Below, in pieces: positions 34,699 through 47,884 of a stretch of 64,000 nt of DNA. Under the pieces are notes generated by a model, which worked only from the letters and a program-made list of their open reading frames with translations, did not search any database and was not told the DNA's origin. Numbering within the stretch: the first letter of the stretch is position 1; every line of letters begins with the position of its first letter. The stretch comes from an uncultured Clostridia bacterium. GTDB lineage: Bacteria > Bacillota > Clostridia > Christensenellales > CAG-138. The DNA lies in assembly GCA_944366945.1 (NCBI GenBank), contig CALVWJ010000011.1, positions 1 to 64,000 of the forward strand, read 5' to 3'. The position numbers and the translations under genes are program-made.

Positions 34699-34721
34699 GT
34701 TGGGCAAACGAATTGAATACC

Positions 34722-34890
34722 TTGGTTCATGGGTGCCGCCCGTTTCAAGCGGGCGCTGAAAAGGGAAAACGGTGCGAATCCGTTGCAGCCCCCGCTGCTG
34801 TAAAGCCGATTTCAAACGCAGATGCCACTGTGCTCCGCATGGGAAGGCGCGTTTGGGAAACGAAGCCAAGCCAGAAGACCGGCCTTTGAA
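34722..34890 (+). ncRNA. Cobalamin (B12) riboswitch
   Basis: Leader RNA with the class I cobalamin core: GGTGCGAATCCGTTGCAGCC followed by CCCGCTGCTGTAA, then the B12-box-type GCCACTG (34824-34830), GGGAAGGC, and the closing GAAGCCAAGCCAGAAGACCGG. Loop and order match AdoCbl riboswitches. A terminator at 34961-34986 lies before the gene, so adenosylcobalamin binding most likely lowers expression by termination. Confidence 0.93.
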
Positions 34891-34960
34891 CGAACGGGTT
34901 TTCTTCGGTGGGAAGGAGCACGCCTGTTTGCCGGGTTTTCGGCATGCCTTGTGAGTGGAC

Positions 34961-40463: not shown

Positions 40464-42875
40464 TTATGCCACCACGATATTCACGATGTTCTTTACCGCG
40501 ATCACTTTGCGCACGGTCTTGCCTTCAATCCAGGGTTGCACCTCCGGCGCCGCCAATACGCGCGCTTCCGTTTCTTCTTTGGAAAGGCCGGCCGGTACGG
40601 TTACGCGCGCGCGCACCTTTCCATTCACCTGCACGCCAAGCTCGATTGTGGAAGCAACGAGCGCAGCTTCATCCCACTTCGGCCAGGCTGAGGCATAAAG
40701 CGGCGTTTCAAAGCCCAGCAGCTCGTTCATTTCCTCCGTAATGTGCGGGGCAACAGGGTTGAGCAGCGTCAAGAGCGTGTGCAGCTCCTCCCGGGTGATG
40801 TCGCCTTTGGCATAAACATCGTTGACAAAGCTCATCATGGCAGCGATGGCAGTGTTATACTTCATCGCCTCATAATCCTCGCTGACCTTCTTGATCATGC
40901 CGTGCAACGCAGCCTTGAGATCATCCCGCACGCCGGTCTCCGAAGAGAGCATATCCTGCAAGCGCCATACCCGGTCCAGGAAGCGGCGGCAGCCGCGCGC
41001 CGAAGTGGTGCTCCAGGGCTTGGGTTGATCAAACGCGCCCATGAACATCTCATACAGGCGGAAGGAATCCGCGCCCATCTCAGCCACGATGTCATCGGGG
41101 TTGATTACGTTCCCGCGGGACTTGGACATCTTTTCCCCGTTCTCACCCAGGATCATGCCATGGCTCGTACGCTTCTGATACGGCTCGGGCGTGGGCACAA
41201 GGCCGATATCATAAAGGAATTTATGCCAGAAGCGGGAATACAGCACGTGCAGCGTAGTATGCTCCATGCCGCCGTTGTACCAATCCACGGGCATCCAGTA
41301 ATCAAGCGCCTCCCGGCTTGCAAACTCCTTGTCGTTATGCGGATCGCAATAGCGCAGGAAATACCAGCTTGAGCCTGCCCAGTTGGGCATGGTATCCGTT
41401 TCGCGCTCCGCAGGGCCGCCGCATTTCGGGCAGGTAGTGTGGATCCAATCCTTAGCGCGCGCAAGCGCGGAGGAACCATCGTCCGATGGCGTATAATCAT
41501 CGATCTCCGGCAGCACAAGCGGCAGCTCGCTTTCGGGCAGCGGCACCCAGCCACATTTTTCGCAATGCACGAGCGGGATAGGCTCGCCCCAATAGCGCTG
41601 GCGGCTGAACACCCAATCGCGCAGCTTATAGTTTACCTTGCGCGCGCCGATGCCCTTTTCCTCCAGCCAGGCGATCATCTTCTCCTTGGCCTGTTCTACC
41701 TCAAGCCCATTGAGGAAACCGGAATTGACAAGCTTCCCAGTTTCGCAATCGGTGAAAGCCTCTTTTTCAATGTCGCCGCCCGCTACAACCTCGATGATGG
41801 GCAGATGAAATACCTTAGCGAACTCATAGTCGCGCGTATCATGCGCAGGAACCGCCATGATGGCGCCCGTTCCATACGTCATAAGCACATAGTCGGAGAT
41901 CCAAACGGGGATTTCCTTGCCCGTGGCTGGATTGATGGCGTTGAGCCCCTTGAGCGGCACGCCAGTCTTTTCCTTTGCCATCTCGCTGCGCTCAAAATCG
42001 CTCTTGCGCGCGGCGGATTCACGGTATGCCTGCACTTCCGCCCAATTCTGGATGCGCTCCTTGTATTTATCAATATAAGGATGCTCCGGGGACATCACCA
42101 TATACGTTGCGCCAAAAAGCGTATCGCAGCGGGTGGTGAAAACGCGCAGTTTATCCTCCGTGCCGGCAAACGCGAAATCCACTTCCGCGCCTTCGCTCCG
42201 GCCGATCCAGTTGCGCTGCTGGGTTTTTACGCGCTCGATGAAATCCACGGTGTCAAGATCGTCGATCAAGCGCTGCGCATAAGCCGTGATGCGCAACATC
42301 CACTGGCTGCGCACCTTCTGCACCACTTCCCCGCCGCAGCGCTCACAGTGGCCATCCACGACCTCCTCGTTGGCAAGGCCGACCTTGCAGGAGGTGCAGA
42401 AATTGATCGGGATCTCCGCCTTATAGGCAAGGCCATGCTCGAAGAGCTTTAAGAAAATCCACTGTGTCCATTTGTAATACTTTGGATCGGTGGTGTTCAC
42501 TTCACGCGACCAATCAAACGAAAAACCGAGGCGTTTAAGCTGACTGCGGAAGCGGGCGATGTTTTGTTCCGTGACCTTTGCAGGGTGGATGCCGGTTTTG
42601 ATGGCATAGTTTTCCGTGGGCAGTCCGAACGCGTCATAGCCCATCGGGAAAAGGACGTTATAGCCCTCCATGCGACGCTTGCGGCAGATAATATCAATGG
42701 CCGTATTGCTCAATGGATGGCCCACATGAAGCCCCTGCCCAGAGGGGTATGGGAACTCGATGAGCCCGTAAAACTTCGGTTTGGAATGATCCTCGCTTGC
42801 TTCAAAGCAATGGGCTTCTTCCCATTTTTTCTGCCATTTCGCCTCTACGGCGTCATGGTCATAGCGTTGTGACAT
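40464..42875 (-). CDS. leuS: Leucine--tRNA ligase
   Basis: 803 residues, class I aminoacyl-tRNA synthetase that charges tRNA-Leu. The HIGH-type motif is in [16 protein letters not shown] (residue about 45) and the KMSKS motif in [15 protein letters not shown]. The editing (CP1) domain is the middle part around TPVPL-like [25 protein letters not shown] 42875 ([22 protein letters not shown]) has GGAGGGAG upstream and matches the family start; the frame's first ATG at 42962 lies in the leader terminator. It is controlled by the T-box RNA upstream. Confidence 0.98.
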
Positions 42876-42928
42876 AGGTTGTCTCCCTCCAACTTGATCT
42901 TCGCTTTTCTTCCTAAAATTCCATAATG

Positions 42929-43165
42929 AAAAACCGCCTCTTGCATTCAAGAGACGGCTCAATCAACCGCGGTACCACTCCCGTTGGCGCACAAGCGCCC
43001 ACTCAACCCCCATAACGCAGGGATACGCCGCGCTTACTTCATTCAGCGCCGGAGGCTCTGCGGCGAGCTTCAAGGCCTCGCTCCGCTGCCTTGCACCTTC
43101 CGGCAGCTCTCTTTGGGTAGCTCAGCCCTTACTATTCCGCTTCTTCGCCCTTGTTCGATACTGCA
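42929..43165 (-). ncRNA. T-box leader of leuS
   Basis: Minus-strand leader between the promoter at 43169 and leuS. The 14-base T-box core GGGAGTGGTACCGCGG (rc of 42967-42982) pairs uncharged tRNA's acceptor end. A terminator follows (CCGTCTCTTG / CAAGAGGCGG, then TTTTTC, at 42934-42957). A CTC codon in GAAGCTCGCC near 43070 is a plausible leucine specifier; I infer it from position only. Confidence 0.92.
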
Positions 43166-43809: not shown

Positions 43810-43838
43810 TTGATATTTATCCATAAATACGTTATGTT
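43810..43838 (+). promoter_or_regulatory. Promoter of the CNNM-gene leader
   Basis: TTGATA (43810-43815) and TATGTT (43833-43838) are 17 bp apart. An alternative -10 (TTATAG) lies a few bases downstream. Confidence 0.55.
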
Positions 43839-43856: not shown

Positions 43857-44020
43857 AAAGGATGGTGGTTTGTCCCGATGGACAGTCCCAGTAGCGACGA
43901 AGGCGCTCCTTACAATTTGTTTTTATTGATGTACGACGTACCTGTGCCTGTATTGAGGGAGTAAGTACGTTTTTTTGTTGTTTTTATAGCCATGAACTGA
44001 AGCAAAACAAATTGAAGGAG
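43857..44020 (+). promoter_or_regulatory. Structured leader with anti-Shine-Dalgarno before the CNNM-family gene
   Basis: Visible structure: AAGGA (43858) can pair with TCCTT (43907); TGTCC/GGACA (43871-43884) and AGCG/CGCT (43893-43907) form inner stems. CTCCTTACAATTTGT (43906-43920) is complementary to ACAAATTGAAGGAG (44007-44020), the Shine-Dalgarno region of the downstream gene, at 14 of 15 positions. ACGTAC (43936-43941) and GTACGT (43965-43970) then a T run form a terminator. An ORF (43878-43964) spans the region. This supports control by RNA folding or by leader translation. I cannot assign it to a known riboswitch class. Confidence 0.7.
43878..43964 (+). CDS. Possible 28-residue leader peptide
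   Basis: ATG at 43878 opens a 28-codon frame ending at TAA 43962. It begins MDSPSSDEGAPYN and ends YDVPVPVLRE, so it is acidic at the N-terminus and has alternating prolines later. Acidic and proline-rich nascent chains are known to destabilise ribosomes at low magnesium (MgtL-type control). The stop codon lies just before the 3' arm of the terminator stem. The ribosome site is weak (GGTGG 9 bp upstream). It is too short to judge by coding statistics; the alternative is that the segment is only a structured RNA. Confidence 0.4.
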   Translation: MDSPSSDEGAPYNLFLLMYDVPVPVLRE

Positions 44021-44029
44021 TAAACAATT

Positions 44030-45280
44030 ATGCCACTTACGAGTTTCATCCCCAGCATTCTGGTGATGGCCTTTTGCATTATCATGTCCGCATATTTTTC
44101 TGCAACGGAAACCGCTTTTTCTTCGCTTAATCGAACGCGTATAAAAGTTTTGGCGGAAAACGGGAACCGCAGAGCACAGCTTACCTATCGCCTATCGGAA
44201 AATTACGATAAGCTCATCTCCACGATCTTGATCGGGAACAACCTGGTCAACATTTTGGTAGCTTCGGTTGGAACGTTGCTTTTTGTAGAGATCTGGGGCG
44301 ATATTGGAGCCACCATTTCGACCGTGGTGGTCACGATTGTTGTGTTGATCTTCGGCGAAATTACGCCTAAAAGCATTGCCAAGGATTTCCCGGAAAAATT
44401 TGCGATGTTCAGCGCTCCGCTGATCAACATTTTAATTTATGTGCTCACGCCTGTAAACTTCCTGTTTACTCAATGGAAAAAGATGATCTCAAAGCTTTTC
44501 CAAACCAAGGAGGACGAAAAAATGTCCCAGGAAGAGCTTCTGCTGCTCCTCGAGGATGTTCAGCAGGAGGGCAGCATAAATGAGGATGAAGGCGTGCTGC
44601 TCAAAAATGCGGTTGAATTCAGCGACCTTGAGGCGCAGGATATTTTAACCCACCGTGTAGACCTTGAAGCGGTCGATATCGATGCTACCAAAGACGAAAT
44701 TGCAGAACTCTTTACCACATCCCATTTTTCCCGTTTGCTGGTATATGAAGAAAGCATCGACAAAATCATTGGCGTAATTCACAGAAAAGATTTCTATGTT
44801 GGCAACGGCATTACGTCAAAAGAGATTAAAGACATTATTACGACGCCGCTTTTTGTTATGCCAGCCGAAAAAATAAGCCGGCTTCTTAAGCTTTTGCAGG
44901 CTAACAAATCGCACATTGCCGTTGTGATCGATGAATATGGCGGAACGCTCGGCATTGTTACCATGGAAGACATCCTGGAAGAGCTTGTGGGCGAAATCTG
45001 GGATGAGCACGATGAAGTCGAGGAACCTTTCCACATGGTGGACCCCAACACCTACATTCTGGAAGGTGACGTAACGTTCGATGATTTTTGCTCGTTCTTC
45101 AACGTTAAGGGCGAGGCGGACAGCGTCTCCATCGCCGGGTGGATCATGGAGCAAATAGGCAAGATCCCGGAGCAGGACGATTCCTTCACTTACGGAAACT
45201 TAACCGTGAGCATCGAACAAATCAGCGACAACCGAATTCTTAAGGTTCGCGTAACAATGCCCGATGCCATTGCGAGCTAA
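44030..45280 (+). CDS. HlyC/CorC (CNNM) family transporter
   Basis: 416 residues. The N-terminal DUF21 domain has about three to four helices ([26 protein letters not shown] near residue 20 is the family block). Two CBS domains (about 200-325) follow, then the C-terminal CorC_HlyC domain (about 340-410, [12 protein letters not shown] then [18 protein letters not shown]). Members export Mg2+ or other cations (CNNM/MpfA-type) and bind ATP-Mg through the CBS pair. AAGGAG at 44015 lies 9 bp before ATG and is covered by the leader's anti-SD sequence. A hairpin at 45309 follows. Confidence 0.95.
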
Positions 45281-45868: not shown

Positions 45869-46369
45869 ATGCAACGATATGCAGCGATGATTTTGGCACT
45901 CCTGCTTGCGCTCGCAACCGCAGGCTGCATGGCGCCGGCGGCACAAGAAATGCAGGATCAAGATAGCAATGAAGCCGCCCTGGAAACCCCGGAGGCCACA
46001 GCGGGAAGCGACTGGGGCATTACGCTTTCCGCCAAAGATGTTACGCCAACGGGGCTGACGCTTGTGATCGCCCAGTCCGGCGGAGCGCCTTCGGGCACGC
46101 TGCAATTCGGAAGTAGCTTTCAGCTCTCTGTTCTAGTGGATGGCGTTTGGAGCGATGTGCCCTACACCGTCGATGCGGACAGCGTGGCCTGGACGGCCGA
46201 AGCCTACATAGTCGCTATGGAAGATTCCGCAGAATATAGTATCACATGGGAAGCCATCTATGGGGTCCTGCCCGCAGGGACTTACCGTATCTGCAAGGAA
46301 TTCCAGGATTTTCGTGCGCCGGGCGATTATGATACGGAAAGCTGCTGGGCCGAATTTGAAATCATATGA
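45869..46369 (+). CDS. Lipoprotein with bacterial Ig-like domain
   Basis: 166 residues. Signal peptide with lipobox (MQRYAAMILALLLALATAGC). Residues about 50-165 form a beta-rich domain with the pattern DVTPTGLTLVIAQSGGAPSGTLQFGSSFQLSVL, then SITWEAIYGVLPAGTYRICKEFQDFRAPGDYD. This resembles the Big_14-type bacterial Ig-like domain found in secreted clostridial proteins. No enzyme motif is present. The ribosome site GGGAGG lies before ATG. It stands alone. Confidence 0.85.
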   Translation: MQRYAAMILALLLALATAGCMAPAAQEMQDQDSNEAALETPEATAGSDWGITLSAKDVTPTGLTLVIAQSGGAPSGTLQFGSSFQLSVLVDGVWSDVPYTVDADSVAWTAEAYIVAMEDSAEYSITWEAIYGVLPAGTYRICKEFQDFRAPGDYDTESCWAEFEII

Positions 46370-46517: not shown

Positions 46518-46546
46518 TTGCAAGCGCTTATGTGCAGTGCTATAAT
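46518..46546 (+). promoter_or_regulatory. Promoter of the ArsB-type permease gene
   Basis: TTGCAA (46518-46523) and TATAAT (46541-46546) are 17 bp apart, 37 bp before the start. Confidence 0.8.
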
Positions 46547-46582
46547 AGCGCTTGTGTGTTTAGGCACAGGAGGCGAAATCCA

Positions 46583-47884
46583 ATGGACATTGTTGCTACA
46601 GTTTCCCCGATGACCTGCGCGGCGCTTGTCGCCGTTGTGCTGGTAAAACCGTCCGTGCGGGTCAAGGGGCATACGGTTAATATTTTCTGGGTCGTTCCGC
46701 TTGTCGGCGCGGCTATTTTGTTGCTTCTTGAAACCATCTCCCCTGGGGAAGTTCTTTTGGGGCTCACAGCGGAAAGCAGCATCAACCCGCTTAAGATCCT
46801 CGTGCTTTTCCTTTCGATGACGCTCATTTCCGTCTTCCTGGATTGCGCGGGCTTTTTCCGTCATCTTGCTACAACCGTACTGCAGCGGCAGAGCGCGAGC
46901 CAATTCCAGCTTTTTACGCTTCTTTATGCGCTCGTTTCCGTGCTGACGGTGTTTACCTCCAACGACATCATCGTGCTTACCTTCACGCCGTTTATCTGCT
47001 ATTTCGCGCGGGACGCAAAAGTTGACCCGATTCCATACCTCGTATGTGAATTCGTTGCGGCGAATACGTGGAGCATGGCGCTCATTATCGGGAATCCCAC
47101 GAACATTTACCTCGCCACGGCTGCCAATGTATCGTTCCTTGGCTATACCGCCGTGATGCTGCTGCCCACGCTGTTCGCAGGCCTAGCTTCTTTCGGCATG
47201 CTGTGCCTGCTGTTCCGCAAGAAGCTGCGCGGCGGCTTTGCGCATGCAACCGTGGAAGATGCACCGCAGGATCCCGTGCTCGTGCGGCTTGGCATCGTCC
47301 ACCTTGTGCTGTGCATCGTGCTGCTGGTGTGCTCTTCTTACCTTGACCTGCCCATGTGGCTGATCTGTTTTGCGTTCTTTTGCAGCCTGTTCCTGCTTGC
47401 AGGCATTTACCTTATGCGCCGTGGGCGTGGACTCTCAATGCTGCAGGAAGCCTTGCATGGCGCGCCATGGGAAACCGTACCTTTCATCCTTTCCATGTTT
47501 GTGCTCGTGCTGGCGCTTAACAAATATGGTTTAACGGACCGCATTGGTGCGTTTCTCGGCAGCGCGCATCCCGTAGTAAGCTATGGTATTTCCTCTTTCC
47601 TTGGCGCAAACCTCATCAACAACATCCCGATGAGCGTGCTGTTCTCTTCCATCGTATCCGGGCTTTCCGGCGAGGCGCACTCCGCTGCGCTCTATGCCTC
47701 CATCATCGGCTCCAACCTCGGCGCGTTCTTTACGCCGCTTGGAGCGCTTGCAGGCATCATGTGGGCCGGTATGCTCAAAAGCCATGGCGTAAAATTTGGG
47801 TTCAGCCGTTTCATTGCCTATGGCGCTGCCGTAGCAATCCCGGCGTTGGCGGCTGCATTGGCGGGACTTGCTCTGATGCTTTAA
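46583..47884 (+). CDS. ArsB/NhaD-like anion permease (SLC13/ion transporter superfamily)
   Basis: 433 residues with about eleven helices. The repeated ion-transporter signatures are visible: VFTSNDIIVLTFTPFICYF (near residue 110) and GANLINNIPMSVLFSSI (near residue 340), with SNLGAFFTPLGALAGIMW near the end. It belongs to the ArsB/CitMHS superfamily. No arsenic-regulatory genes (arsR, arsC, arsA) are adjacent, so the substrate could be another anion or dicarboxylate. ATG 46583 has AGGAGG upstream; the longer frame is unsupported. A terminator follows near 47941. Confidence 0.88.
   Translation: MDIVATVSPMTCAALVAVVLVKPSVRVKGHTVNIFWVVPLVGAAILLLLETISPGEVLLGLTAESSINPLKILVLFLSMTLISVFLDCAGFFRHLATTVLQRQSASQFQLFTLLYALVSVLTVFTSNDIIVLTFTPFICYFARDAKVDPIPYLVCEFVAANTWSMALIIGNPTNIYLATAANVSFLGYTAVMLLPTLFAGLASFGMLCLLFRKKLRGGFAHATVEDAPQDPVLVRLGIVHLVLCIVLLVCSSYLDLPMWLICFAFFCSLFLLAGIYLMRRGRGLSMLQEALHGAPWETVPFILSMFVLVLALNKYGLTDRIGAFLGSAHPVVSYGISSFLGANLINNIPMSVLFSSIVSGLSGEAHSAALYASIIGSNLGAFFTPLGALAGIMWAGMLKSHGVKFGFSRFIAYGAAVAIPALAAALAGLALML

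Follow-up and report, generated by a model that had tools for sequence, protein, structure and literature searches.

A leader ORF upstream of a CNNM/CorC-family gene

The window, by which we mean the whole 64,000-nucleotide stretch of clostridial DNA that was analyzed, carries a complete gene of the CNNM/CorC family preceded by a leader whose features are collected in Table 1. Pfam searches with the gene product returned PF01595 (7e-53), PF00571, and PF03471, and in a profile search the protein matched the solved CNNM/CorC structures 7m1t, 7cff, and 4hg0; with its CNNM transmembrane domain, CBS pair, and CorC_HlyC domain, it has the domain composition of the family. Bacterial CNNM/CorC proteins include PaeA, a polyamine exporter, and for this reason the cation exported by the window protein is not certain; its resemblance to PaeA was below threshold, and the protein is a putative Mg2+ exporter. 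A candidate promoter was found once, compared with 0.8 occurrences expected in shuffles. Downstream of the CNNM gene, past a small Big_14-domain protein (45869-46369), lies an ArsB/CitMHS-type transporter gene (46532-47884, plus strand).

Table 1. Features of the CNNM gene and its leader in the window
Feature	Coordinates	Strand	Remarks and basis
Candidate sigma-70-type promoter, TTGATA-17-TATGTT	43810-43838	+	just upstream of leader; consensus match only
Ribosome-binding region of leader ORF, AAAGGATGGTGGT	43857-43870	+	sequence; contains AAGGA
Leader ORF, 28 codons, MDSPSSDEGAPYNLFLLMYDVPVPVLRE	43878-43964	+	stop TAA at 43962-43964
Acidic/proline codons 2-11 (DSPSSDEGAP)	43881-43910	+	proposed ribosome-destabilizing sensor; enrichment of such N-termini
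Anti-Shine-Dalgarno segment CTCCTTACAATTTGT inside leader ORF	43906-43920	+	duplex energy compared with shuffles
Intrinsic terminator, stem GACGTAC/GTACGTT plus T run	43935-43977	+	folding; stem kept in relatives
Shine-Dalgarno AAGGAG of CNNM gene	44015-44020	+	sequence and folding
CNNM/CorC-family gene	44030-45280	+	complete; CNNM, CBS pair, CorC_HlyC; putative Mg2+ exporter

An earlier, sequence-only reading of this DNA had described a 28-codon acidic/proline-rich ORF ending at the 3′ arm of a terminator, together with a near-perfect anti-Shine-Dalgarno (anti-SD) segment, and all three features were borne out. The nascent chain encoded by the ORF begins MDSPSSDEGAP, and the base that follows its stop codon is the start of the terminator 3′ arm. 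The terminator-like hairpin is formed by ACGTAC (43936-43941) and GTACGT (43965-43970), with a T run extending to 43976; because its loop is 23 nt, it was not picked up by a generic terminator scan. The anti-SD segment lies in codons 10-15 of the ORF and pairs with ACAAATTGAAGGAG (44007-44020), the SD region of the CNNM gene, leaving one bulged A. As computed with RNAduplex, the duplex comprises 18 bp at -21.1 kcal/mol (compared with -9.8 +/- 2.1 for shuffled ORFs), and a duplex of this strength was obtained with 1 of 2000 shuffled ORFs.

When the leader was folded without a ribosome, the terminator stem formed with a probability of 0.98 and the anti-SD:SD helix with a probability of 1.00, and the CNNM SD was unpaired with a probability of 0.01. 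When a ribosome was placed at the leader stop codon, the probability of the terminator stem fell to 0.00; with this single ribosome the anti-SD helix re-formed, and release of the SD would therefore require following ribosomes. With a ribosome over leader codons 3-12, the CNNM SD was unpaired with a probability of 0.91. Given that the terminator is removed by a ribosome at the stop, and the SD freed by a ribosome positioned over codons 3-12, both locks would be opened only by repeated translation of the full ORF. These effects of ribosome position are folding predictions. The earlier reading had also proposed that CTCCTT of the anti-SD segment could pair instead with AAGGA at 43858, yielding two exclusive folds. 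That AAGGA is the leader ORF's own SD, and the pairing is therefore a competition between two ribosome sites that would compete with leader initiation; together with the predominance of the anti-SD:SD helix in the ribosome-free fold, this leaves a balanced two-state switch unsupported.

Leaders of CNNM genes in related genomes

CNNM orthologues were gathered from relatives, from genomes of named GTDB species, and from an independent class-wide sample. As for the closest relatives, a 28-codon leader ORF was found at L032 (MDSPSTDEYAPDNLNFQAPRMPLPILRE), whose CNNM protein is 78% identical to that of the window, and at L054 (MDGPGSDDCSPNYIVWLVYDILAPVFRE), L058 (MDSPSSDGGNPCCINGFVCGMLLPVLRE), and L053 (MDSSSSGDRDGNQLILLSSGISAPFFRV). 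In the window and all four of these loci (5/5), the stop codon is directly followed by a terminator arm, GTAYGY or GTGTGC, and the pairing of the stem was kept despite base changes on both sides; at L058, most of the T run has been lost. A counterpart of the leader ribosome-binding region (GGATGGTGAT/AAGGTGAT) was present at L032, L054, and L058.

The enrichment of such leaders was measured with a fixed rule that demanded an SD matching at 5 or more bases, a length of 12-60 codons, at least 3 Asp, Glu, or Pro in residues 2-12, and at least 1 acidic residue in residues 2-4. Under this rule, an Asp/Glu/Pro-rich, SD-preceded ORF was found in 58 of 152 CNNM upstream regions, compared with 2.45 in dinucleotide shuffles (maximum, 5), 1 on the reverse strand, and 2 of 85 for other genes of the CNNM loci (Fisher p = 2e-11). 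The leaders begin in several ways, including MDGDSSEDDN, MDSDSSD, MDEPPLP, MDQPPP, MDDADSDA, MDDPSKRR, and MDDVPL, and when starts of the MDDAD- and MDxDS-type were searched for as patterns, every hit was either a CNNM leader or coding sequence of no relation. A table of residue composition was built on ORFs selected for acidity and is thus not independent evidence. In the class-wide sample, the best CNNM orthologues were preceded by a leader in about 15 of 28 cases at an SD of at least 4 and in 6 of 28 at an SD of at least 5, and leaders were rare in the more distant CNNM clades. When 12 pairs of related leaders were compared, a coding signature was evident: pooled pN/pS was 0.50, and third codon positions varied most (p=0.0013); within the first 12 codons alone, the signature was not significant (p=0.11).

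A recognizable terminator was present in 48 of 76 CNNM leaders, about a third being without one, and in 45 of these 48 the ORF reads through the terminator or stops inside it. The terminator started within 15 nt of the ORF stop in 46 of 48, compared with 43.0 expected under uniform placement (p=0.07). Because the leaders are so compact, the overlap does not go beyond uniform placement, and it was dropped as independent proof. As for the anti-SD pairing, the window (z -4.6) is the strongest of 65 leaders, and p<=0.005 was reached in only 5 of the 65. The mean probability of an unpaired SD was 0.396 across the leaders compared with 0.427 with shuffled ORFs (p=0.11), and the anti-SD was accordingly dropped as a general mechanism. 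The anti-SD helix of the window is therefore a strong additional lock, but a local and lineage-specific one. It is the peptide that is conserved, and not an aptamer.

Two further observations were made on the CNNM leaders. The second CNNM gene of the window's genome (28% identical; L002, G000:C24, leader at 1245) has the leader MDDGDSSDNPSG, with a terminator inside the ORF. Also, within the first 12 leader codons, serine is encoded by AGY in 88 of 113 cases, foremost by AGT, whereas in the CNNM genes themselves the figure is 590 of 1904 (p ~4e-23); this skew may reflect the one-step neighborhood of AGY to Asp codons, or selection at the level of RNA.

Leaders of MgtE, CorA, and control genes

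Class-wide Clostridia samples of four other genes were examined by using the CNNM composition rule with an SD of at least 5 and a length of 10-65 codons. Acidic/Pro leaders were found before 14 of 30 MgtE genes (p = 2e-8) and 4 of 30 CorA genes (p = 0.011), and before none of the UppP (0/30) or TrkH (0/29) genes, or 0 of 59 combined. Many of the MgtE leaders are of the form M-D-x-x-P-L-P (MDSDPLP, MDSSPLP, MDYDPLP, or MDPGPLP). Moreover, an M-box lies directly upstream of the MgtE leader at L287, L305, L308, and L333, a link between the leaders and Mg2+ that does not depend on how the CNNM genes are annotated. In the window's own genome, the mgtE gene has the leader MDAGPYPSTKIK (L314), and the region of the CorA gene has none. 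A family of such leaders associated with Mg2+-transport genes is thus evident from sequence and statistics.

CNNM and MgtE leaders differ in layout. Strong terminators were found in 38 of 76 CNNM leaders compared with 4 of 22 MgtE leaders (p = 0.013), and the MgtE leader ORF usually ends nearer its gene than the CNNM leader ORF does. At MgtE loci L284-L342, a segment close to where the ORF ends (AACCAUxAUCACC-like) could pair with the GGUGAUGGUU-like ribosome site of the leader, to which it is complementary, and this suggests alternative folds. The CorA leaders at L367, L370, L378, and L379 begin MDIDPYPN, MSTDPYPN, MDADPKRT, and MDADPGEK, respectively. In Hungatella, uppP/bacA is preceded by a leader of similar type (beginning MDDADSDAAPEY; L099, 1084-935, minus strand) that has a terminator-like hairpin and was not found at other uppP genes; UppP as a further target, raised by this locus, was dropped in view of the 0/30 in the class sample at an SD of at least 5.

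Proposed control through the leader peptide, and its alternatives

The earlier reading had left two possibilities, namely a metal-sensing riboswitch that works through the AAGGA/TCCTT stem, or mgtL-like control through translation of the acidic/proline leader peptide. The latter is strongly supported by the comparative evidence (the CNNM, MgtE, and CorA leaders and the coding signature). Ribosomes are destabilized by nascent chains that open with acidic and proline residues, and more strongly so at low Mg2+, according to work of Chadani (2017, 2021) as cited in PMC11282234, PMC8092293, and PMC12421838, and MgtL acts through acidic/Pro codons (PMC11282234). Our assessment is that the window element is probably a leader-peptide transcription attenuator, in which the ORF serves as Mg2+ sensor in an MgtL-like way and the output is inverted on an exporter. 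Ribosomes would start at 43878 and at once make the acidic, proline-containing chain MDSPSSDEGAP, a type of sequence known to make ribosomes unstable under Mg2+ limitation (intrinsic ribosome destabilization, IRD). At low Mg2+, ribosomes would drop off early, the remainder of the leader would be left without ribosomes, and the terminator (43935-43977) would form; in any transcript that read through, the CNNM ribosome site would be hidden in the anti-SD helix, and the exporter would be off. At high Mg2+, ribosomes would complete the ORF, the ribosome at the stop (43962) would cover the terminator 3′ arm, and following ribosomes would hold the anti-SD open, so that the CNNM exporter would be made. 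Complete translation of the leader thus probably switches the exporter on at high Mg2+. Ribosome drop-off, Mg2+ as the signal, and the direction of the response are what we infer; being on at high Mg2+ would make sense for an exporter and would run opposite to MgtL. Salmonella corC has been reported to be raised by high Mg2+ (PMC12421838).

More broadly, there is perhaps an even chance that Clostridia possess a regulon of ribosome-destabilizing leader peptides through which Mg2+ is generally sensed, both for its export (CNNM) and for its import (MgtE, CorA). Its outputs would be opposed through RNA architecture: translation against a terminator in the exporters, and an ORF end near the gene's ribosome site, sometimes behind an M-box, in the importers.

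A leader-peptide attenuator could also respond to some other signal, such as polyamines, the action of EF-P or ABC-F proteins at Pro/acidic stretches, the overall capacity for translation, or how far Asp or Pro tRNA is charged. Pro codons and acidic codons, which occur together in the leaders, are each known to slow ribosomes, EttA acts on acidic N-termini including that of MgtL (PMC11282234), and PaeA belongs to the protein family of the window gene, its resemblance being below threshold as noted. However, no single amino acid was common to all leaders, and this absence of a shared codon argues against single-amino-acid (tRNA) attenuation. Given also that the leaders associate with CNNM, MgtE, and CorA and not with TrkH or UppP, and that the M-box paired with some mgtE leaders points to Mg2+, we regard another signal as unlikely.

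Still less likely is that the ORF provides only constitutive translational coupling or anti-termination, its acidic N-terminus being a by-product of a favorable start region. The overlap of ORF ends with terminators is what simple coupling needs, and the AGY skew hints at nucleotide-level selection near the start. Nevertheless, acidic/Pro codons at the start are not expected to aid initiation, and under the same rules for ORF length and SD, no acidic/Pro ORF preceded the 59 UppP and TrkH genes.

The riboswitch, in which the leader RNA itself would bind Mg2+, Mn2+, Na+, or Li+ and use the anti-SD/SD helix and the terminator as expression platform, is not supported. The window has a strong helix and a terminator, a metal-transport gene follows the leader, and some clostridial mgtE genes do have an M-box upstream. 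When the leader was compared with Rfam by using cmscan (Infernal), no match was obtained at the gathering threshold, and only chance matches, with no plausible family among them, appeared at a relaxed threshold; between 43700 and 44100, no covariance model (M-box, yybP-ykoY, Na+, Li+, or NiCo) matched. The M-box (RF00380) was found neither in the window nor in the window's own genome. No conserved aptamer or shared RNA fold was found between leaders, whereas ORF length, N-terminal composition, and the coding signature are conserved, and the proposed alternative stem involves the leader's own SD. These data make a metal-binding leader RNA very improbable. The two real Rfam matches in the window are a T-box leader (42947-43154, minus strand) upstream of leuS (40464-42962, minus strand) and a cobalamin riboswitch (34714-34901, plus strand).

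Although the long-loop terminator escaped the generic scan and D/E/P-rich SD-ORFs occur in about 1-2% of regions in dinucleotide shuffles, it is barely credible that the 28-codon frame is untranslated and the helix and terminator accidental, given the enrichment over shuffles, the reverse strand, and other genes, the 28-codon ORFs in four relatives, and the pN/pS of 0.50.

The proposed leader-peptide attenuator was compared with known systems. The MgtL leader peptide of E. coli and Salmonella mgtA, which begins MEPDPTPLPRRR, resembles the window leader: both are short ORFs located 5′ of a gene for Mg2+ transport, with acidic/Pro codons at the very start, and in both it is proposed that transcription depends on what becomes of the ribosome translating the leader. 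The window element shares with leaders of the MgtL/MgtQ type an SD-preceded short ORF, an initial stretch of ~10 residues with acidic and/or Pro codons that are conserved among relatives, and RNA folds that are predicted by folding to shift with ribosome position and to control the downstream gene. MgtL proper involves Rho-dependent termination, an importer gene, and expression at low Mg2+, whereas the window has an intrinsic terminator that overlaps the ORF end and a CNNM gene in place of mgtA; full translation would turn the gene on in the window, and turns it off in MgtL. The clostridial MgtE leaders share a P-L-P core with E. coli MgtL, and in this clostridial lineage the leaders are compositional relatives of MgtL rather than demonstrated homologues. 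In attenuators of the E. coli pyrBI type, as in the window, the terminator is entered or traversed by the leader ORF, and a close ribosome prevents termination. Such a leader ORF overlapping or abutting an intrinsic terminator was found in the window and in relatives, the overlap alone not being beyond uniform placement. pyrBI senses UTP through RNA polymerase pausing, whereas in the window the proposed sensor is the nascent peptide. The M-box (ykoK, RF00380) likewise lies in 5′ leaders of Mg2+-transport genes and exerts the Mg2+ control that we propose for the window, but it is an aptamer and not a leader peptide. In MgtQ, an ORF in the mgtC-mgtB intergenic region (PMC8092293), ribosomes are destabilized at the Asp2 and Glu5 codons, and whether the ribosome site of the next gene is accessible depends on alternative RNA folds, as with the anti-SD layer in the window. 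In MgtQ the consequence of drop-off is expression of an importer, whereas the predicted consequence in the window is silencing of an exporter.

In the literature searched, which excluded bioRxiv and most subscription journals, no leader peptide was described for CNNM or clostridial MgtE genes. Leaders of the acidic/Pro Mg2+ kind appeared there solely at Mg2+ genes of enterobacteria, along with the suggestion of a possible control of MgpA by YoaL (PMC12421838); sensing of Mg2+ by drop-off on such peptides has so far been described for enterobacterial importers. What would be new is that sensing of the MgtL type, its output inverted, is combined with an ORF that overlaps the terminator in the manner of pyrBI, and the similar peptides before exporter and importer genes across Clostridia suggest a widespread, so far undescribed, ribosome-based sensing of Mg2+. 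If so, ribosome drop-off leaders would be a broad alternative to the M-box riboswitch across Clostridia, would explain Mg2+ control in genomes without an M-box, and would show one ribosome-based sensor giving opposite outputs. The prediction is that the exporter rises with Mg2+ only when the acidic/proline codons are present. The finding also flags a class of unannotated genes of 20-50 codons.

A different arrangement is represented by CorC (YbeX), the N-terminus of which is reported to hold an IRD sequence (Chadani 2021, as cited in PMC12421838). CorC is like the window gene in protein family, acidic start, and predicted expression only at ample Mg2+, but its destabilizing sequence lies in the protein itself and not in a separate leader. 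CNNM proteins without a leader had slightly more Asp, Glu, or Pro in their own first residues (1.53 compared with 1.04, p=0.005). Several begin with an acidic/Pro stretch as reported for E. coli CorC, namely L015 (MEDPPPAAYD), which resembles the CorC arrangement, L154 (MLSEQPDPEPDS), and L169 (MDSDDPEPDS).
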